Assembly: GCF_000407145.1 (NCBI RefSeq)
Contig: NZ_KE136474.1
Span: 434,001 to 498,000 of the forward strand
From: Enterococcus caccae ATCC BAA-1240
GTDB lineage: Bacteria > Bacillota > Bacilli > Lactobacillales > Enterococcaceae
Length of the DNA stretch: 64,000 nucleotides
Direction: 5' to 3'
Below, piece by piece: positions 5,135 through 26,868 of the stretch. The translations under genes and the position numbers were made by a program. Under the pieces are notes generated by a model. The model was not told the DNA's origin. It made no database searches and saw nothing but the letters and a program-made list of their open reading frames with translations. Within the stretch, counting starts at the first letter, position 1. Each line of letters begins with the position of its first letter.

Positions 5135-5800
5135 GTGAATCACTACGACTGGCTTTGCCAGAGTAGATGATAAACAATACTTGGCGAACGAAGTGAGAGA
5201 AGTTACAGTACTAGTGAATCACGCCACGTCGTTTTGATTTCATCAATTTCTAATTGCTAAAGAACTGAAGGTTGAAGGAATACGATTATCTTTGCCAGAG
5301 TAGATGATAAACAATACTTGGCGAACGAAGTGAGAGAAGTTACAGTACTAGTGAATCACGCCACATCGTTTTGATTTCATCAATCTCTAATTGCTAAAGA
5401 ACTGAAGGCTGAAGGAATACGATTATCTTTGCCAGAGTAGATGATAAACAATACTTGGCGAACGAAGTGAGAGAAGTTACAGTACTAGTGAATCACGCCA
5501 CGTCGTTTTGATTTCATCAATTTCTAATTGCTAAAGAACTGAAGGCTGAAGGAATACGATTATCTTTGCCAGAGTAGATGATGAACAATACTTGGCGAAC
5601 GAAGTGAGAGAAGTTACCCTACTAGTGAATCGCGCCACGTCGTTTTGATTTCATCGATCTCTAATTGCTAAAAAACTGAAGATAGAAGGAATACGGTTAG
5701 CTTCGCCAGAGTAAATGGTTCACACTACTTAGCAAACGAAGTGAGAGAAGTTACCCTACTAGTAGACCACCTAGATTACCAAAAAAACTAAAGCTAAAAA
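5135..5800. repeat. Five-unit 137-bp tandem repeat between rpmH and rnpA
   Basis: The motif GCCAGAGTAGATGATAAACA recurs at 5157, 5294, 5431 and 5568, and a diverged form (GCCAGAGTAAATGG) occurs at 5705: an exact 137-bp period. Units 1-4 are nearly identical; unit 5 has decayed and is cut short. Each unit carries TACTTGGCGAACGAAGTGAG and later CGCCA, and AT-rich filler (TTTCATCAATTTCTAATTGC). There is no long open frame. A related array with a ~121-bp period lies at 14550-14965. The remaining gap, 5801-6097, is AT-rich, with a probable rnpA -10 (TATTATTATAGAGT region near 6050). Confidence 0.9.
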
Positions 5801-14166: not shown

Positions 14167-14454
14167 TATATGTAATCACTTATGTAGCAGTACCACAACC
14201 AAATACTTTACATTTGGATTATGCACTGAGTATGATGAAAGGTGGCTTGATGATATATTGTGAGGAAGCAATTCTTGAATGGTTTGGCTCAAGAATACTT
14301 GGAGGTTCTTTCCGATACATAACGTAAAAGTAGTAGTAAAAACAATCAACAGTTGATAGCGTATAGAAAGTGAAAAGAAAATCAGAGTTTCACCAAACAA
14401 TTGTAATAAAGAAGCCAAATTTTCAACACAAAAAAGTCATAATTTCGGGTTATT
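14167..14454. other. AT-rich spacer after the lysin gene
   Basis: No convincing gene. Its right part (14375-14455) is the conserved upstream half of the small-RNA element, sharing AAGAARCCAA and ACACA-RAARAGTCATAATTTC-like words with the copies near 21640 and 26710. Confidence 0.5.
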
Positions 14455-14546
14455 ATATATTCATACCAAACAAACAACCCTAACAAAACACTTTTTCATT
14501 TTTTAACTCCTTTTCCCACTCTTCCCCAAAGAGTGGGTATTTTGTT
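14455..14546 (+). ncRNA. Small-RNA-like element, copy 1 of 3
   Basis: A TATATT -10 (14456-14461) precedes an unstructured region AACAACCCTAACAAAACAC, then CATTTTTTAACTCCTTTT, then a hairpin CCCACTCTT/AAGAGTGGG (14515-14537) and a T-rich tail. The 49-nt core is identical in three places in this window (copies at 21716 and 26783) while the flanks differ. The middle segment is the exact complement of a ribosome binding site plus start codon (AAAAGGAG, 7 nt, ATG), as in the csRNAs of streptococci. The predicted RNA is about 79 nt. No good -35 is seen, so an activator may be needed. Confidence 0.65.
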
Positions 14547-14547
14547 G

Positions 14548-14965
14548 CGAATCACTGCGATTGGCTATGACAGAGCAGATGATGAGCAATACTTGGCGAA
14601 CGCAGTGAGAGAAGTGTCCATACTTGTGAATCCCACCATTTTTATGCTTACATCAAACACTAAAAATAGAAAGGCTATGACAGGCTGAGCTAGAGCAGAT
14701 GATGAGCAATACTTGGCGAACGCAGTGAGAGAAGTGTCCATACTTGTGAATCCCACCATTTCGTTATGCTTACATCAAGCACTAAGAATAGAAAGACTAT
14801 GACAGGCTGAGCTAGAGCAGATGATGAGCAATACTTGGCGAACGTAGTGTGAGAAGTGTCTATACTTGTGAATCCCACCATTTCGTTACGCTTACATCAA
14901 GCACTAAAAATAGAAAGACTATGATAGGCTGAGCTAGAGCAGATGGTAAACAATGCGGGGGAGTA
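14548..14965. repeat. Tandem intergenic repeat, ~121-bp period
   Basis: GAGCAGATGATGAGCAATAC recurs at 14573, 14693 and 14815, with a decayed fourth start at 14937. Units share ACTTGGCGAACG, AGTGAGAGAAGTGTC and ACTTGTGAATCCCACCATTT. Frames that stay open on the minus strand here merely repeat the unit and have no ribosome binding sites. The array is related to the 137-bp array at 5135-5800, and both start just after a terminator with TTTGTTGyGAATCACT. Confidence 0.85.
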
Positions 14966-15106
14966 GTTTTATAACTAATGAATTACCAAAAGCCGAAGCT
15001 TAAAAATAATAGAAGTAAAAATCAATACAATCAGCCAGATCGATTATTCATCATTGGAATTGTAAGCCAAACAGAGTAAGAAATGAGCGAATGGAGAAAC
15101 ACTTCT

Positions 15107-15153
15107 CAAAACAAGCTACCCCTCAAAATTTTTTGAAGGGTAGCTTGTTTTTG
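15107..15153. terminator. Terminator of the first tyrosine-heptad surface protein
   Basis: AAAACAAGCTACCC and GGGTAGCTTGTTTT pair perfectly, with further pairing CTCAAAA/TTTTGAA inside. It lies 32 bp past the stop codon of the minus-strand gene and can act in both directions. Confidence 0.85.
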
Positions 15154-15184
15154 TAATAATTTGTTGTAATATGGGCATCGAATT

Positions 15185-18100
15185 TTATTTACTATCTTTT
15201 CCTTTTCTTCTCTTCCAGAAAAGTAGAGATCCAGCCGCAGTGGCCATAAAGGCGCCTATTCCTTGTCCCAATAAAGAAGTTTCTGTACCAGTATTTGGTA
15301 ATTTTCTTTCAGAACGAGTATTTGGTAGTGTTTTATTTAAAGGATCAGAGGCCGTGTTAAGCTTAACGCTTGTAGCTACAGTGCTCTCTTGAGTTTCTTC
15401 CTTCTTCTTAGGCGCCACTAATGATTCGGGCGCTTTGGCTATATTTGTTGCGGCAGGAGCTTCCAGTTCATTAGGTTTAGTCGGTGCAGTAAACTCAATT
15501 GGTTGTTTTACAGGTGGAGTTACTGGAGCAACTAATTCTGGTGCTGTAACTTCTGGAATAATTGGTGCTTCGGCGATCGGTGCTTCTTCTAATTCTTTAG
15601 GTTGTTCTAAAGGAGCTACATTAGTCACGCCGTCTAAATCATTTAACTCAACAGGAGCGCCAGGTTGAATGCTTCCTTCAGCTTCTTCACTATTTAATTC
15701 GACATCAGTGACATTTTCAGAAGTTTCTAATTCTGTAATTGAATCAATAGGAGTAGATGCACGCTCTTCTGTTAATGTTGGTAGATTAATGCCCGTGATT
15801 TCTTCAATTATTTTTGTAGAAGCGGCAGCTGGCGCTAATGCAGAGTTAGTTGGTTCGGTTACATTATCTACATTTTTAGGCACATTGAGCACTGTTGGCT
15901 TTATAGGATCTTTAGGTAGATCAGGTACTGTTGGGATAACTGGTGGATTAATTTTTTTTAGGTGTAAAAAATTAATTTTTTCGAATTTTCCGAGATTAAA
16001 TTTTGGAATGATGACCTTCTCAACGGTAGTCTGTCCACTAATGCTTCCTTGATATTGTAATGAACTTGAAAAAAGAGTCTCACGTACCCAGTCATAAGCT
16101 GACATATCATCTTCAATCTCATATAAAGTTAATATTGATATATTAAAATTTTGAGCGTCTACTAGTCCTTTCTGAGCCATAGGAGCTGTTCCAGTAATAT
16201 AGTCTGTTTTTCTTGAAAATGCAACATTATTCCCTGTGGCTTTATTAAACTTGTTGATCTCATCTTCTAATTTTACTTTTTCAGCTTCCCAGTCAGAAGC
16301 TACCTCTAATAGATATGCAACATATTGCTTGACTTTTTCAACGGCTGAATTCCCCTTGGATGTATAGTCAGCTACAAATTGTTCCCATTGTTCTGTCCCA
16401 TAAATTGTTTTTAGTTGCTCATCTGTATAGCCTATATGGGTAAAATCTTTTGTATATAAAGCATTAATTGTTGGTTTCCATATATTCTCAAAATCATTAT
16501 TGGGATCGCCAATATTGTTAGGCTTCCAACCATTTGTATACTTCTCAAAAGCAATAAGGTAATCAGAATAAGCTTGATAATACATTTGATATGCTTCAGC
16601 ATTATCAATATCTTTTTTCATTATTTTTTCAGCTTCAGCAATAAAATTTGTCAAGTCAGTTTGAAAATCTTTTGGTCCGTAAATAAGGGTTTCTACAGTT
16701 TCTGGTTTAATAGAACTAGCATTGTAAGTATCATTTTTGTCTTGGTAATCCATAATGACAGTCCATGATTCATTTAGAGCGTTAGTTAAAGCTTCTTTAG
16801 CACTATCATATTCTGCTTGCCACACTGCTAAGTCAGCTGGGATATTTTCAAGATTTTCTTGTGTAATTTTGTCAGCTGGAAAGTCAGCAAGAACATTCCC
16901 CATACTGGTAATCGCATCATTGATTTCGTCTTTAGCAATAACAGCTTTCTCGTAAGCCGCAAGAGCGTCTTCATATGGTTTTGTGGCTGTAATGAAACTT
17001 TCTTTTGCAAGATCATACTTAGTTTTTAGATTTGTAAATAGTTTAAGCGCCTTGTCATAGTCATGGTTAAGGGTTTCTAATTTTCTTGCAGCAATTTGAT
17101 AGTCAGCGTCAGCTACTTTCCATGCATCATTCGCAGCAGCGTATGCTTTATCAACACCTTCGTATTTTGTATAAAGTTCTTTAAAAGAGGTCGTTAAGTC
17201 TGCGTACTCTTTTGAAACAGTAGCAAACTCTTTTTCATGAACTTTTTGTTCATCGGTAACTTCACCCAGATTAGTCAAAGTTACCTTATAGATTTTTAGA
17301 GTTTCTTCATATTTAATTTTTAGATCAAGGTAGTCAGTAGCTAAAGCAGTATATTCTTTTTCGCGAAGTTCAAAAGTTTCTTTCGCTGTGGCAATTGCGT
17401 GTGCGGCTGTTGTATAAGCTGTTTCGGCGATAGCATATTCTGCATTTAAATTAGCAAATTGGCTCGTGACTTTATCATAATTTACTTTTGTCTCAGTATA
17501 CTGTGTTTTTAAAGCGGTGTATTGTTTTGTCGTTGTTTCTAGTGTTTCGCCTAACTTAGTAAAAGATGTTTCAGCTGTAGCTAGATCGGATTTTAGCTGT
17601 GCTAATTCCTCTGTTAATGTTTGATATTTTGGCAAAAGATAGTCATATTTGGCACGTGCTGTTTCGTATTTTTGATTGACAATTTCATATGTTTTGTTGG
17701 CCTCGGTGTATTTCGCTTCGATAACACCAAAAGCTTCTGATCCGATTATAAATTTCTCAGACACAGCATTGTAAGATTCTTTTAACTGGTCATACTGAAC
17801 GTTTACTTTGGTAGACTCTGCGATTGTTGCTTGGTAAGCAGTTTCTGTTTCAGCATAGACATTCATTGCTTGTGCGTAATCAATACTGAGTGTGTGGTAG
17901 TCTTGTTCTAATTTTTGATAGTCAACATTCGCTTGTTCACATTGTGCCACAAGTGTCTCATATTTTTGCTTGATAGATTGATAGGAAGTGGCAATTTGTT
18001 GGTAATCAACTGTTGCAGTTTCATATGCGGTTTTAACTTCCTCAAACTTCGTAGTGAGTAGATTTGACTGTTCTTTTACTTGTTGATATTCCTTACTTAC

Positions 18101-19471
18101 TTCGTTATAGCGAGTATTATTTTCATTATAGGCTGCTAAAGCTGTTGAATATTCTACTGTACCTTCTTCATACTGTTTTAGAATCGCTTCTGCAGCTGCT
18201 CTTTTTTCATTATAATTATTCAAAGCAGTTTCATACGCGGTAAGTTTAGTATTATATTCAGCTTTTTGTTGATCGTAGGTCGTTTTAGTTGTTTCATATG
18301 CTTTGGTTTGTTGATCAAAGGCTGTTTTTTTGGTTTCGTAGGTTGTACGTTCAAGTTCATATTGAGTTGCTGATTCTTTTAATTGACTAGACAAAGTCTC
18401 GTAGTCTTTTTTGGCTTTTTCGTACGCCTGTTTTGTAGTATTATAATTTTCTTTGATCTTTTTATACTCAGATAGCTTCTGTTCATAGTCACTGATTGAT
18501 ATCGCTAAATCAGATAGACGTTTTTCATAAGCTACTTTATCCGTCATATAATTTGTTTTAGCTTCATTAAATTCGTTTAACAGTCTATTATATTCTTCGA
18601 GCGCTTTATCATAATCTGATTTCACTTCGGTATAGGTTGTTTTGGCTGTTTCAAGTTCTGTTTTTAAGGTGTTGTATGACGTTATTGCCAGATTGAATTC
18701 TGTTGCTTTTATATCGTACGCTGTTTTTTTAGTATTATAGTTGTTAAGTAGCGTTTCATAAGAAAGTTTTTGTGAATTATAGTCTGTTAGTTGAGTAGTG
18801 TACTTACTTTTGGCTTTGTTGTATGCTGTTTGAACTGTTCTATAAGCTGTTGCAGCATCTTCGTAAATTTTTCGGTTTGTTTCATACTTGGTTCTTAAGT
18901 TTTCATAGAGTGCTCTTTTTTTCTCAGCCTCTTTGTTCAATGTTTCGTAGTTAGCTTGAGCATTTAAATATTTTGTTTGCATATCGAGAAACGTTGATTC
19001 TGCATCTTGATACAGAGCTTGTTTTGCTTCATAAGCTACCTTGGCTTCATTATAAGTTTCAATATGTGCTTCGTAGTTGGACTTATTTGTTTCATATGTA
19101 GCTTTATGTGCGTTATAAGTCTTCGTCGCTTCTTCAAAAATCGTTAACTGTGTTTGGTAGGTTTTTTTTAGTTCATCTAAAGTTGTTTTAAGTGTATCAG
19201 CTGCTTCATACGTCTTATCAGCCACACTTTTAGAGGTATTGTAGTTTTCTAATGCAGTATCGTACGCTTTTTTTGTATCATCGTATTCTTTTTTAGCGGT
19301 TGTATATTCTTCTAATATACTCTTATAATCTTTTTCCAACGTTGGTTGAGCTGATTGGTTTCTCTGCTCCAATGTTGTAGCTAAAGCGTGTACAGGGCCA
19401 CCAGCTGCAATTAGAACTACGCTTGAAAATAACAAAAATTTAAACGAACTTTTTTTCAATGAGTCATTCAT
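15185..19471 (-). CDS. LPXTG surface protein made of tyrosine heptads (paralog A)
   Basis: A 1,428-residue protein. Signal peptide 1-31 (FKFLLFSSVVLIAAGGPVHALA). Residues ~48-845 are an almost unbroken run of seven-residue repeats with an aromatic residue, nearly always Tyr, at one position (YETNKSN-YEAHIET-YNEAKVA), predicting a very long alpha-helical coiled rod. Residues ~845-1150 are a more varied, Trp-containing region. About 1175-1385 is a Pro/Glu-rich wall-spanning part with PTVPDLPKDP. It ends LPNTRSERKLPNTG, a membrane segment and KRRKGKDSK, a sortase A signal. ATG 19471 matches the GTG start of paralog B (22012-26289). Probably a fibrous adhesin; the ligand is unknown. Confidence 0.85.
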   Translation of the reverse strand: MNDSLKKSSFKFLLFSSVVLIAAGGPVHALATTLEQRNQSAQPTLEKDYKSILEEYTTAKKEYDDTKKAYDTALENYNTSKSVADKTYEAADTLKTTLDELKKTYQTQLTIFEEATKTYNAHKATYETNKSNYEAHIETYNEAKVAYEAKQALYQDAESTFLDMQTKYLNAQANYETLNKEAEKKRALYENLRTKYETNRKIYEDAATAYRTVQTAYNKAKSKYTTQLTDYNSQKLSYETLLNNYNTKKTAYDIKATEFNLAITSYNTLKTELETAKTTYTEVKSDYDKALEEYNRLLNEFNEAKTNYMTDKVAYEKRLSDLAISISDYEQKLSEYKKIKENYNTTKQAYEKAKKDYETLSSQLKESATQYELERTTYETKKTAFDQQTKAYETTKTTYDQQKAEYNTKLTAYETALNNYNEKRAAAEAILKQYEEGTVEYSTALAAYNENNTRYNEVSKEYQQVKEQSNLLTTKFEEVKTAYETATVDYQQIATSYQSIKQKYETLVAQCEQANVDYQKLEQDYHTLSIDYAQAMNVYAETETAYQATIAESTKVNVQYDQLKESYNAVSEKFIIGSEAFGVIEAKYTEANKTYEIVNQKYETARAKYDYLLPKYQTLTEELAQLKSDLATAETSFTKLGETLETTTKQYTALKTQYTETKVNYDKVTSQFANLNAEYAIAETAYTTAAHAIATAKETFELREKEYTALATDYLDLKIKYEETLKIYKVTLTNLGEVTDEQKVHEKEFATVSKEYADLTTSFKELYTKYEGVDKAYAAANDAWKVADADYQIAARKLETLNHDYDKALKLFTNLKTKYDLAKESFITATKPYEDALAAYEKAVIAKDEINDAITSMGNVLADFPADKITQENLENIPADLAVWQAEYDSAKEALTNALNESWTVIMDYQDKNDTYNASSIKPETVETLIYGPKDFQTDLTNFIAEAEKIMKKDIDNAEAYQMYYQAYSDYLIAFEKYTNGWKPNNIGDPNNDFENIWKPTINALYTKDFTHIGYTDEQLKTIYGTEQWEQFVADYTSKGNSAVEKVKQYVAYLLEVASDWEAEKVKLEDEINKFNKATGNNVAFSRKTDYITGTAPMAQKGLVDAQNFNISILTLYEIEDDMSAYDWVRETLFSSSLQYQGSISGQTTVEKVIIPKFNLGKFEKINFLHLKKINPPVIPTVPDLPKDPIKPTVLNVPKNVDNVTEPTNSALAPAAASTKIIEEITGINLPTLTEERASTPIDSITELETSENVTDVELNSEEAEGSIQPGAPVELNDLDGVTNVAPLEQPKELEEAPIAEAPIIPEVTAPELVAPVTPPVKQPIEFTAPTKPNELEAPAATNIAKAPESLVAPKKKEETQESTVATSVKLNTASDPLNKTLPNTRSERKLPNTGTETSLLGQGIGAFMATAAGSLLFWKRRKGKDSK

Positions 19472-19549
19472 TAAAACACACGTACCTTCCTTTTTATAAT
19501 AATATCAATATAGTAAACATATAGAACCTTTAAGGAGTTTATAATTTAA

Positions 19550-19565
19550 CAAATGTAATTATACA
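19550..19565 (-). promoter_or_regulatory. Shared -10 block of paralog A
   Basis: On the minus strand GTATAATTACATTTGT contains a consensus TATAAT (19558-19563). The same block, with one change, lies at 26358-26373 before paralog B, at a similar distance (about 80-90 bp) from the start codon. Neither has an obvious -35. Confidence 0.5.
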
Positions 19566-19918
19566 GTATTTATAAGTAATATATTTATCATATTTTTATG
19601 AAAGAGTATAATTTTTTGATAATTATGTGATTTATATAAAAATACAATACATATATTAAAAATCCTGTATTTGTAAAAAAGAACAAGGTTTATGGGGGAT
19701 AATCAAGTGAATCCCTTAGAAATTTTTGTGCAGTTTTTATATGATCATTAGGTATGGTTGTTTATTTATATTGAATTTTCTGAATAATACACGGAACAAA
19801 AAAGTTTTTTTATAACAAATTTATTTTTATATTTAGATAAAAATAAGATGAAAAAGAGTTAGAGGACTTGGTTAGTGAGGGAGTTATATTATAAAAATAT
19901 GAAAAATTTTTTTGAACA

Positions 19919-19958
19919 TAAAAAATCTGAGTCCCAATAAAGTGAACTCAGATTTTTT
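19919..19958. terminator. Terminator of the Ig-like secreted protein gene
   Basis: AAAAAATCTGAGT pairs perfectly with ACTCAGATTTTTT. Poly-A on the left and poly-T on the right make it bidirectional. Confidence 0.85.
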
Positions 19959-20003
19959 ATGTTTTACCATGTCAACGACTAAGATCAAGAGTCTATTCTG
20001 GAT

Positions 20004-21497
20004 TTAATAACTTACAGAGTAATTTGTTTTTTTATAGCCAAAAATCTGTTTATTTGGATTACCAGTCTGTGTTAAGTTGTTTATATCTTTTTCTGCATAG
20101 ACAATAGGTTTATAGTTAGTAGCATTTGAGTTGGAACTACCAAATGCAATGACCGACAAGTCGTGTGTTTTTTGTTCTGGTGTTTTTAACCAAGCGCTTA
20201 AGAAGGTTTCACCGAAGGCACTTCTAATTTGGAAGTCATACTGAAAAGAAAGTTTTAATCCTTTGTATTCAGTACCATTAAAAATACGATTTTCAAGGTC
20301 ACTAACAACAACTTTGCTAGGATCGAGATCATTTATTGAAATAATTGGATCAAGTCCCATTGTAAAGGAAGCAATTTCCATATCTTTTTGATAATAGAAA
20401 TAAAATTCTGGTTTTAACCATTTGGCAGTTGGGATTGTTTGAGTTCCCATATCATATTCATTTTCAAAGCCGTAATTTCTGAACGATGTTTGAAATCCAA
20501 CATTCCCACCTGGGGCTGCAGACAAACCATCCGAATATTGGCCGATGAACGGTCGTGATTGACCACTTTCGTTGATAACTACATTAAATCGTCCAATTTC
20601 TACTCCATCTGAATTTAAAACAGCAACGGCCGCTTTATCATTAATACTTGTAATCGCTCGAGCAACCAAGCTGAAAGAACCATCTGCTTTAATAGCAGTC
20701 GTTTGTTGGCGTTTGTTATTGACATATAAACGAACCTGACTTGCTCCAGCACCACTAACCGTACCAGTGACATTCCGTTCGCCTAGTGAGAAATCATTTA
20801 AATGCATTGAAAGCTTAATTGGATTGACTGCTACTTTTGCTTTTTGAACTAATTCACCATCAGCATCAAACCCTAGGACTTCAACATAATCCCGAAGAAA
20901 TTTGATTTCTCCGTTTGTATCTAACGAAAATAAGCTTGTATATGGCACTTCCTTTTCGTCGATGATAGTAGCATTTACAGCAAGTTTCACATCAGTGATT
21001 TCCCAATCTGCAGTACCAGTGACTACAGAGTCTTTCCGTAAGGTAAACTCATCAGGTGCCAAAATCCATTCACTTGGTTGAAGAAAGACTTTAGATTCAC
21101 CAACAACCACTTTGTTCTCTCTGTCCAAACCAACGACCTTTACCGTATCTGTCAATGACTGGATACTGTTGTTAATATCTAACTCAAAAAAGTAATTGTC
21201 CTCGTTTGGAACATCTTCAATGACTTCTGCGGTCGTTACCAAAACATCATTTACCCAAAGTTGGACCCAGTAAATGTTGGAGTCTCTTTTTACCTCACCA
21301 GATACAAATAAGCTCTTTTTCCCACCAACGCCAACAGGATCAGTAATAATGTGTTTACTATGATTTTTGAAAGCAGATTCAGGAACAATAGAGGATGCTT
21401 CAGCATTAATAATACCTATTCCAGTGATTTCAGGAAGAACAATTCCTCCAAAACCTAAGCCTAGAATAGCACTTGCGGTAATAATAAGTTTTTTCAT
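20004..21497 (-). CDS. Secreted protein with bacterial Ig-like modules
   Basis: A 497-residue protein. Signal peptide ~1-34 (MKKLIITASAILGLGFGG...INAEA). It is followed by at least three beta-rich modules of ~75 residues with similar ends (VNDVLVTTAEV...VKVVGLDREN; VNATIIDEKEV...VEVLGFDADG; VNNKRQQTTAI...VAVLNSDG), typical of adhesive Ig-like domains. A different C-terminal domain of ~170 residues (GQYSDGLSAAPGGNVGFQTSF...) follows. There is no LPXTG, WxL or membrane anchor, so it is either released or held by another surface molecule. It starts with AAAGGAG 7 nt before ATG 21497. It lies between the two heptad proteins on the same strand but has its own terminator. Confidence 0.75.
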   Translation of the reverse strand: MKKLIITASAILGLGFGGIVLPEITGIGIINAEASSIVPESAFKNHSKHIITDPVGVGGKKSLFVSGEVKRDSNIYWVQLWVNDVLVTTAEVIEDVPNEDNYFFELDINNSIQSLTDTVKVVGLDRENKVVVGESKVFLQPSEWILAPDEFTLRKDSVVTGTADWEITDVKLAVNATIIDEKEVPYTSLFSLDTNGEIKFLRDYVEVLGFDADGELVQKAKVAVNPIKLSMHLNDFSLGERNVTGTVSGAGASQVRLYVNNKRQQTTAIKADGSFSLVARAITSINDKAAVAVLNSDGVEIGRFNVVINESGQSRPFIGQYSDGLSAAPGGNVGFQTSFRNYGFENEYDMGTQTIPTAKWLKPEFYFYYQKDMEIASFTMGLDPIISINDLDPSKVVVSDLENRIFNGTEYKGLKLSFQYDFQIRSAFGETFLSAWLKTPEQKTHDLSVIAFGSSNSNATNYKPIVYAEKDINNLTQTGNPNKQIFGYKKTNYSVSY

Positions 21498-21715
21498 ATT
21501 TTTTCTCCTTTAAATTTATTTGACACCTCATTATAAACTATTTCAATCTTAAAGTGAATATAAATTTATTTTTAGTGTTTAATATATTTTAGTGGATAGT
21601 TATATTAATGCACAACATAAGTTGTGCTAAAACTTCGGATTTTAGCCAAACAATCACAACAAAGAAACCAATCTTTTAACACAGAATAGTCATAATTTCA
21701 AGATATTATAGATTC
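21498..21715. other. Spacer between the Ig-like gene and small-RNA copy 2
   Basis: AT-rich. The left end carries the Ig-like gene's ribosome binding site. From about 21640 it matches the upstream half of the small-RNA element (AAAGAAACCAAT...ACACAGAATAGTCATAATTTC). Confidence 0.5.
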
Positions 21716-21796
21716 ATACCAAACAACCCTAACAAAACACTTTTTCATTTTTTAACTCCTTTTCCCGCTCTTTCCCCGAAGAGCGGGTTATTTGTT
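21716..21796 (+). ncRNA. Small-RNA-like element, copy 2 of 3
   Basis: The 49-nt core is the same as in copy 1, starting AACAACCC at 21722. The terminal hairpin reads CCCGCTCTT...AAGAGCGGG (21764-21787): relative to copies 1 and 3 an A-T pair has become G-C on both sides, a compensatory change that supports a real RNA stem. The tail is TTATTTGTTG. It is transcribed divergently from the Ig-like gene, whose start region it could pair with. Confidence 0.65.
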
Positions 21797-22011
21797 GTTC
21801 ATTGCGCCTATGCCACTTCGTTACGAGTTCATCACTCTCTACAAACTAAAATACTGAAAATGAACTTTGTCTAAGAAGTAAATCGTTCACAATAGAAAAA
21901 CACTGAGAATCAACCCTTCAACATTGAAGTGATTGTTTCTCAGTGCCTTTTGTCATTTTAGTGACTAAATTCTTTTGACTAAAATTATAATGCTGACTAG
22001 AAAATAAGAAT
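21797..22011. other. Spacer with the terminator of paralog B
   Basis: CACTGAGAA (21901-21909) pairs with TTCTCAGTG (21937-21945), with more pairing inside. On the minus strand it is followed by TTTTTCTATTG, so it terminates paralog B. Nothing else seen. Confidence 0.7.
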
Positions 22012-25000
22012 CTATTTGCTATGTTTTCCTTTTTTTCTCTTCCAGAAAAGAAGAGATCCGGCTGCTCCTACCACAAAAGTGCCCATTCTTTGTCCTATTG
22101 GAGATGTTTCAGTTCCTGTATTTGGCAGCCTTCTTCCAGAACGAGTATTCGGAAGTTTAGGTTTTGAAGGATCAGCGACTATATTAGTTTTAGGGAAAAT
22201 AGTGTCCTCTTGCTTTTTCTTAGGAACTGCTAACGCTTTAGGATCTTCAGATTGGTTTACTGCCACAGGAGCTTCTAATAAGTTAGGTTGTGTTGGTGTT
22301 GTGATTTCAATTGGATGTTCTACTGGCGCTTGTACAGGATCTACTAATTCTGGTGCCGTAATTTCTGGAATAACTGGTTTTTCAACTTCGGGCGCGGCTT
22401 CTAATTCTTTCGGTTTTTCCAGTGGAGCTACGTTAGTAACATCTTCTAAATCATTTAACTCAACAGGAGCGTCAGGTTGAATACTTCCTTCAGCTTCTCC
22501 GCTATCTAATTCTACATCTGTAACATCTTCTGAAGTGCCTAATTCTATAATTGAATCAGGATGAGTAGATGCGTGATCTTGAGTTAATGTTGGTAGATCG
22601 ATGCCAGTGATATCTGTAATTACTTTTGTTGAAGGGACAGAAGGTGTAATTGCTAGATTCAGTGGCTCCGACACAGTAGCTACTGTTTTAGGGAGGTTGA
22701 TTTCCCCAGGTTCCAAAGGCGCTTCGGGCATATCAGGCACTGTTGGAATTACAGGAGCTGTGAGTTCAAGTATTTTCAAAGTACCTGTGGAAATTGTTAA
22801 CTTTTTAGGGTCAAATTTTGGAACTGTTACTTCTGAGGGTTTTGACTGACCGCTAATGCGCCAACTCATTGCAGAACCGATTCCTTGCCCCCCTAACCAT
22901 CCAAGAACAGTTTCTCCAGAGTCTGCATCATAAGGATCGTTTTGAAGAGCAGAGAGACTGTTACTGTAAACACGATCAGCTTCGTCAGCTACTCCGGCAG
23001 CTCCTAATGAAAGTCTGTTGCTAGTAGTTGGTTTTTTAATAGTTTCTCCTGTTATTCCTTCAAAATCATCTATAGCAGCTAGCATATCATCATGTGCTTT
23101 TGTCCATTTATCAGATACACTTATTATATGTTTTGCATATGTTTTTAGCTGTTTAACAGCATCTGCTCCTTGATTTTCGTAGGCTGAAACGATTTCATCC
23201 CATTCAGTTGTAGTATTCATCGAATCTAAATCATCATCAGAATAACCTAGCTCACTAAAATCAACATTGGCTACCGCATTTACAATAGATAACCATTTTT
23301 TTTGCTGGTTCTTAGGATCTCCTACATTTCCAGGTTGCCAACCAGTCAAATATTCTTGAAATTCCTTTTTATAATCAACGTTGGCTTTGATGACGGTGTT
23401 AAAAGCATTGACGTTAGCAACAGTTTGTTTCATCATTTTTTCTGCATCAGCAATATATGTTATCAATACTTCTTTAAAATTTGCTGGATCATAAACCAGT
23501 CCTAATCTATCATCTAAGTTTATGGGAGCAATTGAGCTTTGATTGTAAGCATCACTTTTTGCTTGATAATCATCAATGGACAACCATGATTCATTTAATG
23601 CCTTATCTAGTGCTTGTTTAGCTACATCATACGTACTTTGCCATGTTGCTAAGTCAGTTGGAATATTCTCAAGATTTGCTTCTGTGATTTTATCAGAAGG
23701 AAAATCTTTAAATACTTGATTCATATTCGTAACTGCAGCATTAATTTGTTTTTCAGCACTGGCTGCTTTCTCATATGCAGCAAGCGCATCTTCATAAGGT
23801 TTAGCGGCGGTACTAAAACTTTCATTAGCAAGATTATGCTTGGTTTGTAGACTGTTAAAGAGTTCAAGAGCAGTAGCATAGTCATCTTTGAGAGTTTTTA
23901 GTTTTCCGTTGGCTATTTGATAGGCATCATCGGCTAATTTCCATGCATCATTCGCAGCTGTGTAGGCTGTATCAACGTCATCATATTCAGATTTAAGCGT
24001 TGTAAAGGATTCTGTTAAGCTCTTATATCCTTGTGAAATTGTATTGAACTCACTTTCATGTGCTTTTTGTTCAGTTGTAACTTCATCTAATATGACCAAA
24101 GTCGTGTTATAGGTTTTCAGTGTCTCTTCGTATTTCGTTTTAAGACTAACATAGTAAGTAGCTAAATCAGTATATTCTTGTTCACGTAACTCAAAAGTTT
24201 CTTTTGCTTTTGAAATTGCTTCTGCTGCGACTTTGTAAGCTATTTTAGCAGTAGTATACTCCACTCCTAAATCAGAAAATTGCTTTTTAACCGATTCGTA
24301 ATCAGCCATAGTTTCAGTATAGTGTGTTTTTAAATCTGTATATTGTTTTTGAGTTGTTTCTACATTTTTTTCTAAATCTGTAAAAGATGTTTCTACTTTT
24401 GAAAGGTCAGTCTTTAATTGTGCTAGTTCATTTTTTAGCGTTTGATATTCTGGGAAAAGACGATCATACTCGGTGCGAGCTAGTTCGTATTTTATTGTAA
24501 CAGCTTCATATGTTTTGCTTGCCTCAATATATGAAGCTTCTGTCGCGTCAAAAACTTTTGATTCGCTTGTAAATGTATCAGAGATAGTATCATAGGCTGA
24601 TTTCACTTGAGCAAATTGAGTTTTTACTTCCTCAGACTCTTTAAGTGTAGCTTTGTAAGCTGATTCTGTTTCAGTGTAGACACCCATTACGTGAGTATAG
24701 CTAGTACTGATGGTTTGATACTCCTGTTCTAATTGTTGATAAGCACTTTCTGCTTGATTAGATTGTGTCATAAGAGAATCGTATTTTTGTTTGATAGACT
24801 GGTAAGAGACAGCAAGTGCTTGAAATTCATTTGTTGCAGACTCATAACCTGTTTTGACCTCTTTGAATTTAGCAGTTAGTAAATCTGCGTGTTCTTTTAC
24901 TTGTTGGTATTCTTTGTTCACTTCGTTGTAACGATTATTGTTTTCAGTGTATGCTGCTAGTGCTGTTGAATATTCCACGGTACCTTCTTCATATTGTTTC

Positions 25001-26289
25001 AGGATTGCTTCTGCTGCTTTTCGTTTTTCATTATAAATAGTTAAGTCTGTATCGTAAGTAGCAAGTTTTGCATCATATTCAGATTTTTGTTGATCGTAAG
25101 CTGTTTTAGCTGTTTCATATGTTTTGGTTTTTTGATCAAACGCTGTCTTTTCTGCTTCATAGGTTAGCCGTTCTGTTTCGTATTGGCTTGCTAATTCTTT
25201 TAATTGATAGGATAGAGTAACATAAGTAGTCTTTGCTTCGTCATAAGCTTGTTTCGTTGTTTGATACTCCTCTTTGATTTTATTGTACTCAGCAAGTTTA
25301 CTTTTGTAATTGCTTATAGAGTTGTTCAATTCTGACAGACGTTTTTCATAAGTTGCTTTATCGGTTAGGTAGTTTTCTTTAGCTTTGTTATATTCAGTTC
25401 GTCGTGCGTTGTATTCTTTCAGGGTTTGATCATATTCTATTTTGACATTAGAGTAGTCATTTTTAGCTGTCTCAAGTTCTGTTTTTAGTTTACTGTATGA
25501 TGTAGAGGCTAGATTAAATTCTTTCGCTTTAGAATCATAAGCTATTTTTTTAGTAGTATACGTGTTAAATAACCTCTCATAAGATAGTTTTTGTGAGTTA
25601 TAGTTCTTCAATTGGGTATTATAAGCCTCTTTAGCCTTATTATAGGCAGTTTGAACCGTTATATAAGCTGTCGCAGCCTCATTGTAAATTTTCTGTTTGT
25701 TTTCATATGCGATACGTAGAGCTTCGTAGTCTGTTCTTTTTTTATGCGCATCTTCGTTTAATTCTTCATATTTTGTTCGAGCATCTTGATACTCATTTTG
25801 CATAGTAGTAAATGTTGATTTGGATTGTTGATAAAGCTTTTTTTCGGTTTCGTAAGCATTTTTGGCTGTATTATAATGTTCAATATGTGCTTCATAATTA
25901 GACTTGTTTGTTTCATATGTAGCCCTGCTTACTTCATAATTCTCAGTAGCCTCTTCGAATTTCGTTAACTGTGTTTGGTAGTTTTCTTTTAATTCATCTA
26001 AAGCTGTCTTTAGTTCATTTGCAGTTTTGTAGGTTTTATCTGCGTTGCTTTTCGATGTATTGTAATCTTGTAATACAATCTCGTAACGTTCTTTTGTTTT
26101 CTTATACTCATCTTTTGCCGTAATATATTCTTGTAATACAGTCTTATAGTCTTTTTCCAAGGCTGTTTGAGATTGGGGTATCTGTTCACGCATTGCGGCC
26201 AACCCTTGTATGGAAGTGCTTGCTGCTATGACAAGCGTACTCGAATACAACAAAAATTTAAACGAACCTTTTTTCCATGAATCATTCAC
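22012..26289 (-). CDS. LPXTG surface protein made of tyrosine heptads (paralog B)
   Basis: A 1,425-residue paralog of 15185-19471. I start it at GTG 26289 (VNDSWKKGSFKFLLYSS), which aligns with the ATG of paralog A and has the same GGAAGG spacing; an ATG at 26301 sits too close to that site. Domains: signal peptide to ~LAA, Tyr heptads ~48-850 (YEVSRAT-YETNKSN-YEAHIEH), a divergent mixed region ~855-1150, a Pro-rich wall region from ~1178 (PTVPDMPEAPLEPG) and LPNTRSGRRLPNTG plus membrane segment and KRKKGKHSK. Signal, rod and anchor are clearly alike in the two proteins, while the mixed region differs most. Confidence 0.85.
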   Translation of the reverse strand: MNDSWKKGSFKFLLYSSTLVIAASTSIQGLAAMREQIPQSQTALEKDYKTVLQEYITAKDEYKKTKERYEIVLQDYNTSKSNADKTYKTANELKTALDELKENYQTQLTKFEEATENYEVSRATYETNKSNYEAHIEHYNTAKNAYETEKKLYQQSKSTFTTMQNEYQDARTKYEELNEDAHKKRTDYEALRIAYENKQKIYNEAATAYITVQTAYNKAKEAYNTQLKNYNSQKLSYERLFNTYTTKKIAYDSKAKEFNLASTSYSKLKTELETAKNDYSNVKIEYDQTLKEYNARRTEYNKAKENYLTDKATYEKRLSELNNSISNYKSKLAEYNKIKEEYQTTKQAYDEAKTTYVTLSYQLKELASQYETERLTYEAEKTAFDQKTKTYETAKTAYDQQKSEYDAKLATYDTDLTIYNEKRKAAEAILKQYEEGTVEYSTALAAYTENNNRYNEVNKEYQQVKEHADLLTAKFKEVKTGYESATNEFQALAVSYQSIKQKYDSLMTQSNQAESAYQQLEQEYQTISTSYTHVMGVYTETESAYKATLKESEEVKTQFAQVKSAYDTISDTFTSESKVFDATEASYIEASKTYEAVTIKYELARTEYDRLFPEYQTLKNELAQLKTDLSKVETSFTDLEKNVETTQKQYTDLKTHYTETMADYESVKKQFSDLGVEYTTAKIAYKVAAEAISKAKETFELREQEYTDLATYYVSLKTKYEETLKTYNTTLVILDEVTTEQKAHESEFNTISQGYKSLTESFTTLKSEYDDVDTAYTAANDAWKLADDAYQIANGKLKTLKDDYATALELFNSLQTKHNLANESFSTAAKPYEDALAAYEKAASAEKQINAAVTNMNQVFKDFPSDKITEANLENIPTDLATWQSTYDVAKQALDKALNESWLSIDDYQAKSDAYNQSSIAPINLDDRLGLVYDPANFKEVLITYIADAEKMMKQTVANVNAFNTVIKANVDYKKEFQEYLTGWQPGNVGDPKNQQKKWLSIVNAVANVDFSELGYSDDDLDSMNTTTEWDEIVSAYENQGADAVKQLKTYAKHIISVSDKWTKAHDDMLAAIDDFEGITGETIKKPTTSNRLSLGAAGVADEADRVYSNSLSALQNDPYDADSGETVLGWLGGQGIGSAMSWRISGQSKPSEVTVPKFDPKKLTISTGTLKILELTAPVIPTVPDMPEAPLEPGEINLPKTVATVSEPLNLAITPSVPSTKVITDITGIDLPTLTQDHASTHPDSIIELGTSEDVTDVELDSGEAEGSIQPDAPVELNDLEDVTNVAPLEKPKELEAAPEVEKPVIPEITAPELVDPVQAPVEHPIEITTPTQPNLLEAPVAVNQSEDPKALAVPKKKQEDTIFPKTNIVADPSKPKLPNTRSGRRLPNTGTETSPIGQRMGTFVVGAAGSLLFWKRKKGKHSK

Positions 26290-26782
26290 TAAAGCACACA
26301 TACCTTCCTTTTTTAATAATGTTCTTGTGATAAAATCTAAAAGTAGTTTATATTTATACAAATGTCATTATACAACAAGTAAAAGTAATTTATTTATCAT
26401 ATTTTTCTACATTGTTCTAATTTTTTGATAATTAATTGAAAAAGAGATGTTTTTTTTATAAAGTATATTTAAAATAGAAATTCGTTTATAAAAATAAATA
26501 GTGATTAATGTGTGTATATAAAAATCATACAATTATCAACCAGTTATTTCTTTGGTTTATGTAAATTATTTAAGGTGATATTTGACAGTGAACCAGGGTA
26601 AGATGCTCTTGCTGTAGCTTTATTTGTTTAGTATGAAAAGAGATAAATGGTAGTTCAAATAGAAGTTGTACCTTCTTTATTTGTATCAAGTTTGTTTTTT
26701 ATTCAAATTTTCTTCTAACAATCCTATTAAAGAAACCAAAATTACAACACAAAATAGTCACAAATTCAGGTTAGTATATATT
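26290..26782. other. Intergenic region upstream of paralog B
   Basis: About 490 bp. It holds the GGAAGG site, the shared -10 block GTATAATGACATTTGT (minus strand, 26358-26373) and, from about 26710, the upstream half of small-RNA copy 3. Confidence 0.55.
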
Positions 26783-26868
26783 CATATTAGAAAAACAACC
26801 CTAACAAAACACTTTTTCATTTTTTAACTCCTTTTCCCACTCTTCCCCAAAGAGTGGGTCTTTTTTTT
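26783..26868 (+). ncRNA. Small-RNA-like element, copy 3 of 3
   Basis: Core AACAACCCTAACAAAACAC plus CATTTTTTAACTCCTTTT is identical to copies 1 and 2, with AACAACCC at 26794. The hairpin is at 26836-26858 and here ends in TCTTTTTTTT, the best U-tract of the three. A TATATT -10 lies at about 26776-26782. On the minus strand the core reads as a ribosome binding site, ATG and a 12-codon frame (MKKCFVRVVFLI); its end differs between copies, so I favour a plus-strand RNA. Confidence 0.68.

Follow-up and report, generated by a model that had tools for sequence, protein, structure and literature searches.

Three small RNA genes in the window

We analyzed a 64,000-nucleotide (nt) stretch of the Enterococcus caccae genome, hereafter the window (C3:434001-498000 of the 3.55 Mb searched), in which three plus-strand copies of a small RNA (sRNA) gene had been predicted at 14455-14546, 21716-21796, and 26783-26868. 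All three copies lie at these positions on the plus strand, and the predicted layout of promoter, exposed segment, and terminator hairpin was seen in each, with a gene length, predicted from sequence, of about 83 nt. The copies share an identical run, AAACAACCC...CTTTTCCC, which is about 46 nt long rather than the ~49 nt given in the original prediction. Their flanks do diverge outside the promoter and terminator, but about 80 nt upstream are partly conserved among the three. The −10 elements, first taken to be TATATT or TAGATT, were placed by comparison a few bases further upstream, as TATTAT, TATTAT, and TAGTAT in copies 1, 2, and 3; the upstream motif AGTCATAATTTC is present but forms only one half of a direct repeat. 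Nor is the family limited to three members, as BLAST found five close copies in the genome (94-100% identity), three in the window and two on contig C4 that flank an EndoS-type glycosidase gene.

All features of the copies are on the plus strand. In copy 1, the promoter (14427-14456) consists of the direct repeat CACA-N6-TCATA, followed after 9 nt by the −10 element TATTAT (14451-14456), and is a strict match to the promoter box described below (C3:448427-448456; control, 0). The sRNA (14463-14546) was matched at 14464-14546 with 105.6 bits by R1, a covariance model built from seven copies of the E. caccae genome, and with 96.6 bits by model R2; its transcript would start at the A of ATACC, 6 nt past the −10 element. 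The sequence and predicted folds place a single-stranded segment, CACTTTTTCATTTTTTAACTCCTTTT, at 14489-14514, antisense to a Shine-Dalgarno sequence (SD), 7 nt, and AUG-AAA-AAG-UG, and ahead of a terminator hairpin with a CCCC loop and a covarying stem (14515-14537). Copy 2 comprises a promoter with CACA-N6-TCATA, 9 nt, and TATTAT (21680-21709; strict box match, C3:455680-455709), an sRNA with a putative start at the A of ATACC (21716-21796; R1 match at 21713-21796, 90.9 bits), the anti-SD/anti-start segment (21738-21763, single stranded), and a terminator hairpin in which, by fold and copy comparison, one stem pair is G-C instead of A-T (21764-21787). Copy 3 has a promoter with CACA-N6-TCACA, 9 nt, and TAGTAT (26748-26777; strict box match, C3:460748-460777), an sRNA (26784-26867 with its putative start; R1 match at 26785-26867, 101.2 bits), the same single-stranded segment (26810-26835), and a terminator hairpin (26836-26858). 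R2 scored the three copies at 86-97 bits and the next best position in the window at 18.5; the copies belong to R2's own alignment, so that these scores show separation and not independent discovery. A chance origin of the three copies is excluded.

Directly behind the copy 1 terminator lie tandem intergenic repeats (14572-14945; 122-base-pair [bp] unit, 3.1 copies at 14572). Other copies are followed by a related motif, GATTGGCT..GCCAGAG..GATGATG, that is also present at 5147-5583 and in another locus (L021, 4267-4741).

A covarying RNA in nearly all Enterococcaceae genomes searched

In its predicted fold, each copy has a 3' terminator hairpin with a C-rich loop and a mostly unpaired 5' part. 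As predicted, the exposed segment CATTTTTTAACTCCTTTT is present in all three copies and lies outside the hairpin; additional predicted pairing is confined to a weaker long-range helix in copy 1 and four pairs in copy 2. Against 200 dinucleotide shuffles, the folds of copies 1, 2, and 3 had z-scores of −3.43, −4.99, and −2.85, and 0, 0, and 2 shuffles, respectively, folded equally well. The compensatory A-T to G-C change noticed in the copy 2 stem is genuine and concerns one stem pair. Covariation was then counted in an alignment of 136 distinct sequences fitted to the model (A5). The nine stem pairs were 96.0% paired, double-sided changes affected all nine (391 cells, compared to 108 in shuffles), and the covariation score was 0.867, compared to 0.225 for shuffled alignments; these counts include probable chance rows (L169, L219, L209:7273, and L182:6568) and repeats of two loci (L032/L033). 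Because most A5 sources (80 of 94) were fetched by the core pattern, the alignment overstates the invariance of the core, while the stem covariation is unaffected by this selection.

R1 found seven strong matches in the E. caccae genome and three weak ones at an E value of about 0.02. The search of Enterococcus genomes that the original prediction had proposed was positive in 22 of 22 genomes of the genus (E ≤ 0.1). At E ≤ 0.01, 103 of the 105 Enterococcaceae genomes searched had matches, 1 to 17 in each, and these genomes covered 17 of 17 genera of the family. Across a sample of the order, 104 of 395 genomes were positive; 34 lay outside the family, 29 of them in a single family (f8). Among the 80 stretches listed, of at least 116 with the core pattern, the named genomes were mainly Enterococcus and Tetragenococcus, and the few matches elsewhere, such as that in a Brachyspira bin (L219), look like chance. 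No Rfam family reached its threshold in a search of the three copies. Thus, the three loci belong to a real, conserved, multicopy sRNA family found almost throughout the enterococci, and its genes, their conservation, and the covariation of the stem are established. Several named genomes carry at least three tandem copies within 1 kb (e.g., L185, L187, and L177), which suggests that local duplication drives copy number. An RNA core near the end of a stored stretch of a viral-collection contig (L265, 14282-14303) is possibly the host flank of a prophage.

Many near-identical copies would also be expected of a functionless repeated or mobile noncoding element, and a repeated motif was seen behind the terminator of 9 of 155 scanned matches and at 14559. 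The covariation, the conservation of the promoter, and the spread over 17 genera with different neighbors make such an element exceedingly improbable. The opposite strand deserved attention as well, for AAAAGGAGTTAAAAAATGAAAAAG is a good minus-strand start site, and the embedded SD and ATG could serve short minus-strand peptides. Among 151 distinct sRNA segments (T-run required, no N; two, L169 and L219, are probably chance), 81 have an opposite-strand frame of at most six codons, and the conserved GGGTT block keeps to no single phase of that frame but is spread over all three (33, 38, and 67 segments; 13 lack the block). Because the frame is not conserved and both the promoter box and the terminator are oriented along the plus strand, a minus-strand peptide gene was rejected as very improbable, and the loci are read as sRNA genes, as originally proposed.

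A direct-repeat box shared with htrA and an ABC operon

All close copies carry the direct repeat CAYA-N6-TCAYA-N9-TANNAT upstream. This strict box has seven matches in the E. caccae genome, while its reversed control has none. Six of the seven precede R1 matches, and the seventh (C1:665343) precedes a divergent sRNA candidate. A sister pattern searched in six genomes of other genera gave 19 matches (controls, 3), which stand before 14 sRNAs (one divergent), three ATP-binding cassette (ABC) operons, and, twice, htrA (identical sequence, one contig). The strict box is present in 109 of the 151 sRNA segments and a relaxed one in 127; shuffling gave means of 0.06 and 0.50. The box is offered as a promoter motif with few false matches for locating such RNAs in any enterococcal genome; with one mismatch allowed, it was dropped as a genome-wide finder. 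The architecture of the repeat (RCAYA-N6-TCAYA, 11-bp period, 9 bp before the −10 element) would fit an OmpR-type regulator replacing a −35 element.

Two box-driven loci are recorded here in their own right. The candidate at C1:665343 (L115) has a terminator and the motif AACTCC and scores 23.6 bits with R1; the gene downstream of it is presumably polA. In genome G099, a box-driven copy (L326, 6668-6697) lies upstream of a regulator gene that we take to be walR, an arrangement that is a possible link between two envelope systems.

Beyond the sRNAs, a relaxed box precedes htrA in all 30 loci returned and read, five of them strict (htrA is present in 37 of the 39 genomes searched), and none of 329 background genes of the E. 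caccae genome. In E. caccae, htrA (C4:262101-263417) carries CATAAAAAATTCAAAGCTATTGGGTAGACT. In E. caccae and two further genomes (G022 and G049), an ABC operon with the box converges with the genes of a two-component system. The best family for the E. caccae regulator is PieR, at 325 bits (next, 219; NCBIfam cutoff, 450), and that for the kinase is PieS, at 445 bits (next, 239; cutoff, 850). The regulator is 88-89% identical in G022 and G049 and about 61% identical to a Listeria protein, which is itself PieR above the equivalog cutoff (479 versus 450 bits). Because the E. caccae regulator scores below the cutoff, its orthology to PieR rests on best match.

In Listeria, the box precedes the ABC operon divergent from pieR in 4 of 4 loci read (L338-L341), and in the htrA promoter the box is exactly spaced but deviates at one position. 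By gene order, this ABC locus would be lmo1505-1506; a Listeria PieRS study lists the transporter pair among PieRS targets (PMC12234432), and another report describes htrA as PieRS regulated (PMC12826053). The enterococcal sRNAs thus have their box in common with a known PieRS-regulated operon. In genome G149, a box stands ahead of the regulator's own gene. The common box and the composition of the regulon are established, and it is likely, judging from these promoters and gene neighborhoods, that the sRNA family is under the control of the PieRS-like system.

The box might instead belong to another OmpR-type regulator (CroR, WalR, or a CiaR-like protein), with the RNAs serving general cell wall stress. 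CroRS runs a large envelope regulon, reported to include htrA in E. faecalis (PMC12826053), and 76 of 149 upstream regions contain TTTATT, slightly more than the shuffled range of 46 to 75. The CroR motif TTTATTAA from the literature (PMC9426447) was found in 5 of the 149 regions, compared to a shuffled mean of 8.6, and CroR was set aside for want of enrichment. WalR and CiaR were dropped, as WalR-type and CiaR-type repeats occurred in none of the 149, and LisR, considered by analogy with LhrC, was also rejected (the box was absent from 12 of 12 LhrC promoters). Moreover, the box colocates with PieRS-like genes in both Enterococcus and Listeria. Control by such another regulator is accordingly unlikely.

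Predicted pairing with translation starts

The segment CACUUUUUCAUUUUUUAACUCCUUUU is the complement of AAAAGGAGUUAAAAAAUGAAAAAGUG, that is, of an SD, a spacer, AUG, and two Lys codons. Exported proteins often begin with Met-Lys-Lys. Gene calling on the window and a 400-kb sample of the genome gave 342 genes, and we computed how the RNA pairs with their starts. Mean pairing was −15.21 kcal/mol, compared to −12.82 kcal/mol for shuffled RNAs, and surpassed 160 of 160 dinucleotide shuffles. Of these shuffles, 4 of 160 favored signal-peptide-like genes to the same degree, and 2 of 160 did so for starts with at least two Lys/Arg in residues 2 to 4; the effect on targets is modest, and both the gene calls and the signal-peptide rule are crude. 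Among the top-ranked predictions are an FtsX-type permease, an SBP_bac_5 (OppA-type) protein, and an NlpA lipoprotein. In the window, a plausible target is the gene of an exported Big_15-domain protein (20004-21497, minus strand), whose start region, AAAGGAGAAAAAATATGAAAAAA, is predicted to pair from −14 to +9 at −16.4 kcal/mol. The family very probably acts in trans, and exported proteins as a class are somewhat more likely than not to be its main targets.

Two long coiled-coil surface proteins are encoded in the window (15185-19471 and 22012-26361, minus strand), the first of which exceeds the LPXTG anchor family cutoff. The original prediction had drawn attention to the heptad adhesin genes bracketed by the copies; heptad genes are also flanked by copies in relatives (L269, L270, and L275), and an EndoS-type gene adjoins the copies on C4. 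This proximity, together with the good predicted fit of the neighboring 20004-21497 gene, would suit antisense RNAs dedicated to a few targets, such as adjacent surface proteins, instead of exported proteins generally. A functional link to the adhesins did not hold up, however: their starts are predicted to pair at −13.0 and −10.3 kcal/mol, weaker than the mean of the 342 genes, and they were rejected as targets. Other copies sit beside unrelated genes, and the pairing segment fits a generic SD-AUG-AAA-AAG shape. Dedicated targets are thus rather unlikely, though slightly less so than control by a different regulator.

A proposed secretion stress regulon

We propose that the three loci would be paralogous genes of a trans-acting sRNA family directed at Sec cargo. 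A PieR-like response regulator would bind the direct repeat 9 bp upstream of the −10 element, in place of a −35 element, and would also activate htrA, encoding a surface protease/chaperone, and the ABC operon that adjoins its own locus. Secretion or envelope stress would induce all sRNA copies at once. Each RNA may then block ribosome loading on mRNAs for exported proteins, because its exposed stretch complements GGAG-N7-AUG-AAA-AAG and exported proteins often start with Met-Lys-Lys; misfolded cargo would be cleared by HtrA while the RNAs lower the supply. The binding of PieR to the box, the inducing signal, and the repression of targets are what we infer here. We put the probability that a PieRS-like secretion stress regulon pairs HtrA with redundant RNAs repressing the translation of exported proteins at roughly 70%.

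Several observations weigh against this proposal. The E. caccae regulator reaches 325 of the 450 bits of the NCBIfam PieR cutoff, six Enterococcaceae loci (L328-L332 and L336) have no box ahead of the regulator gene, and about 10 kb separate the ABC operon from the regulator in genome G083. The best-known PieRS targets are prsA1/prsA2; a PrsA-like gene in the Listeria stretches lacks a box at the same spacing, an argument against carrying the Listeria regulon over unchanged. One report also places htrA in the CroRS regulon of E. faecalis (PMC12826053). On the RNA side, the near-invariant core in A5 is partly due to core-pattern fetching, a box scan with one mismatch is at background (34 matches; control, 27), the target calls rest on the crude rules noted above, and the signal-peptide share of the top 17 targets was matched by 16 of 160 shuffles and is not clearly special.

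The fuller version of this idea, an enterococcal RNA arm of secretion stress in which one PieRS-like system makes both HtrA and redundant RNAs (up to 17 matches per genome) that lower export load as generic antisense to Sec cargo starts, is put forward tentatively, at somewhat less than even odds. If right, it would explain how enterococci match the synthesis of exported proteins to export capacity. What began as a single repeat has become a hypothesis about a regulon spanning the whole family, in which the regulator is named, the DNA box is precisely defined, and the target rule can be tested.

Comparison with known systems

In kind, the family belongs with the csRNAs of streptococci and LhrC but is neither of the two, being set apart by its box, its probable regulator, and its proposed target rule. 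csRNAs are several RNAs of ~80-100 nt per genome, each with an exposed SD/AUG complement and, just upstream of the −10 element, a repeat for an OmpR-type regulator; that of CiaR is TTTAAG-N5-TTTAAG. The enterococcal RNAs likewise are multicopy, expose a segment complementary to SD and AUG, and have a direct repeat in this position, and htrA would be co-controlled, as it reportedly is by CiaR (PMC12826053). They differ in lacking the CiaR repeat (0 of 149 upstream regions) and in box, sequence, and nearest regulator (PieR), and no Rfam csRNA family matched the three copies at threshold. A csRNA-like design with another sequence and upstream motif, as originally proposed, is supported by these results.

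LhrC is multicopy and controlled by a two-component system, with targets that include the exported proteins OppA and LapB (PMC8079631 and PMC4132741); its promoters depend on LisR, and it is reported to repress oppA and lapB (PMC8079631), which is a parallel only. Its architecture combines stem-loop A, a single-stranded stretch, and a terminator, with a UCCC motif in each. With LhrC (RF00616), the enterococcal RNAs share the CU-rich segment AACUCC-UUUU and a C-rich terminator loop, but the three folds lack stem-loop A, and the LhrC promoters lack the box (0 of 12). RF00616 scored 19.3 bits on copy 3 (cutoff, 110) and had no match in the E. caccae genome (G000) at E ≤ 0.001. Ref84 (RF02846, Enterococcus sRNA 84) resembles the family in its AUACCAACAACAACC start, ACUCCUUUUCCC, and terminator and differs in an extra hairpin and promoters without the box (0 of 12 loci); its scores on copies 1, 2, and 3 were 34.4, 32.1, and 31.2 bits, under the cutoff of 52. 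The first 23 R1 matches in nine loci were all LhrC or Ref84 copies, and weak (14-29 bits). Such scores overlap noise elsewhere (up to 18.5 bits with R2), and the family may be distantly related to LhrC/Ref84 or may have converged on them. Four distinct Ref84 members exceed the Rfam cutoff in the E. caccae genome (C2:612654, C1:686450, C1:686680, and C1:1207439), two of them in tandem; lacking the box, they form a second related sRNA group.

Searches of open-licence papers turned up single members or relatives (Ref84-like sRNA_109/093 and perhaps sRNA_112/005) and neither the RNA family nor the box. E. faecalis sRNA_112 and E. faecium sRNA_005 are a conserved pair, most alike in the first 50 nt, whose predicted targets are lipoproteins and ABC transporters and which are treated as a single sRNA (PMC7724050); compared by description, they may be one member of the box-driven family. 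Seven siblings are the highest number reported for an sRNA family according to a Listeria review (PMC8079631), which the 1 to 17 model matches per genome would exceed.

The Listeria PieRS regulon offers the nearest regulator, the adjacent ABC operon, and htrA; in the main text of the PieRS paper, the word sRNA is absent (PMC12234432). A functional likeness lies further afield. SigmaE of enterobacteria makes the DegP/HtrA protease together with MicA and RybB, sRNAs that cut the supply of envelope proteins. Both systems would couple a protease to supply-cutting sRNAs through an envelope stress regulator, but they share no homology, and the enterococci use a two-component system and many near-identical copies. 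If the proposal is true, the enterococcal RNAs would be a Gram-positive counterpart of the SigmaE sRNA arm, with targets chosen by the shape of the start region instead of a few named mRNAs.

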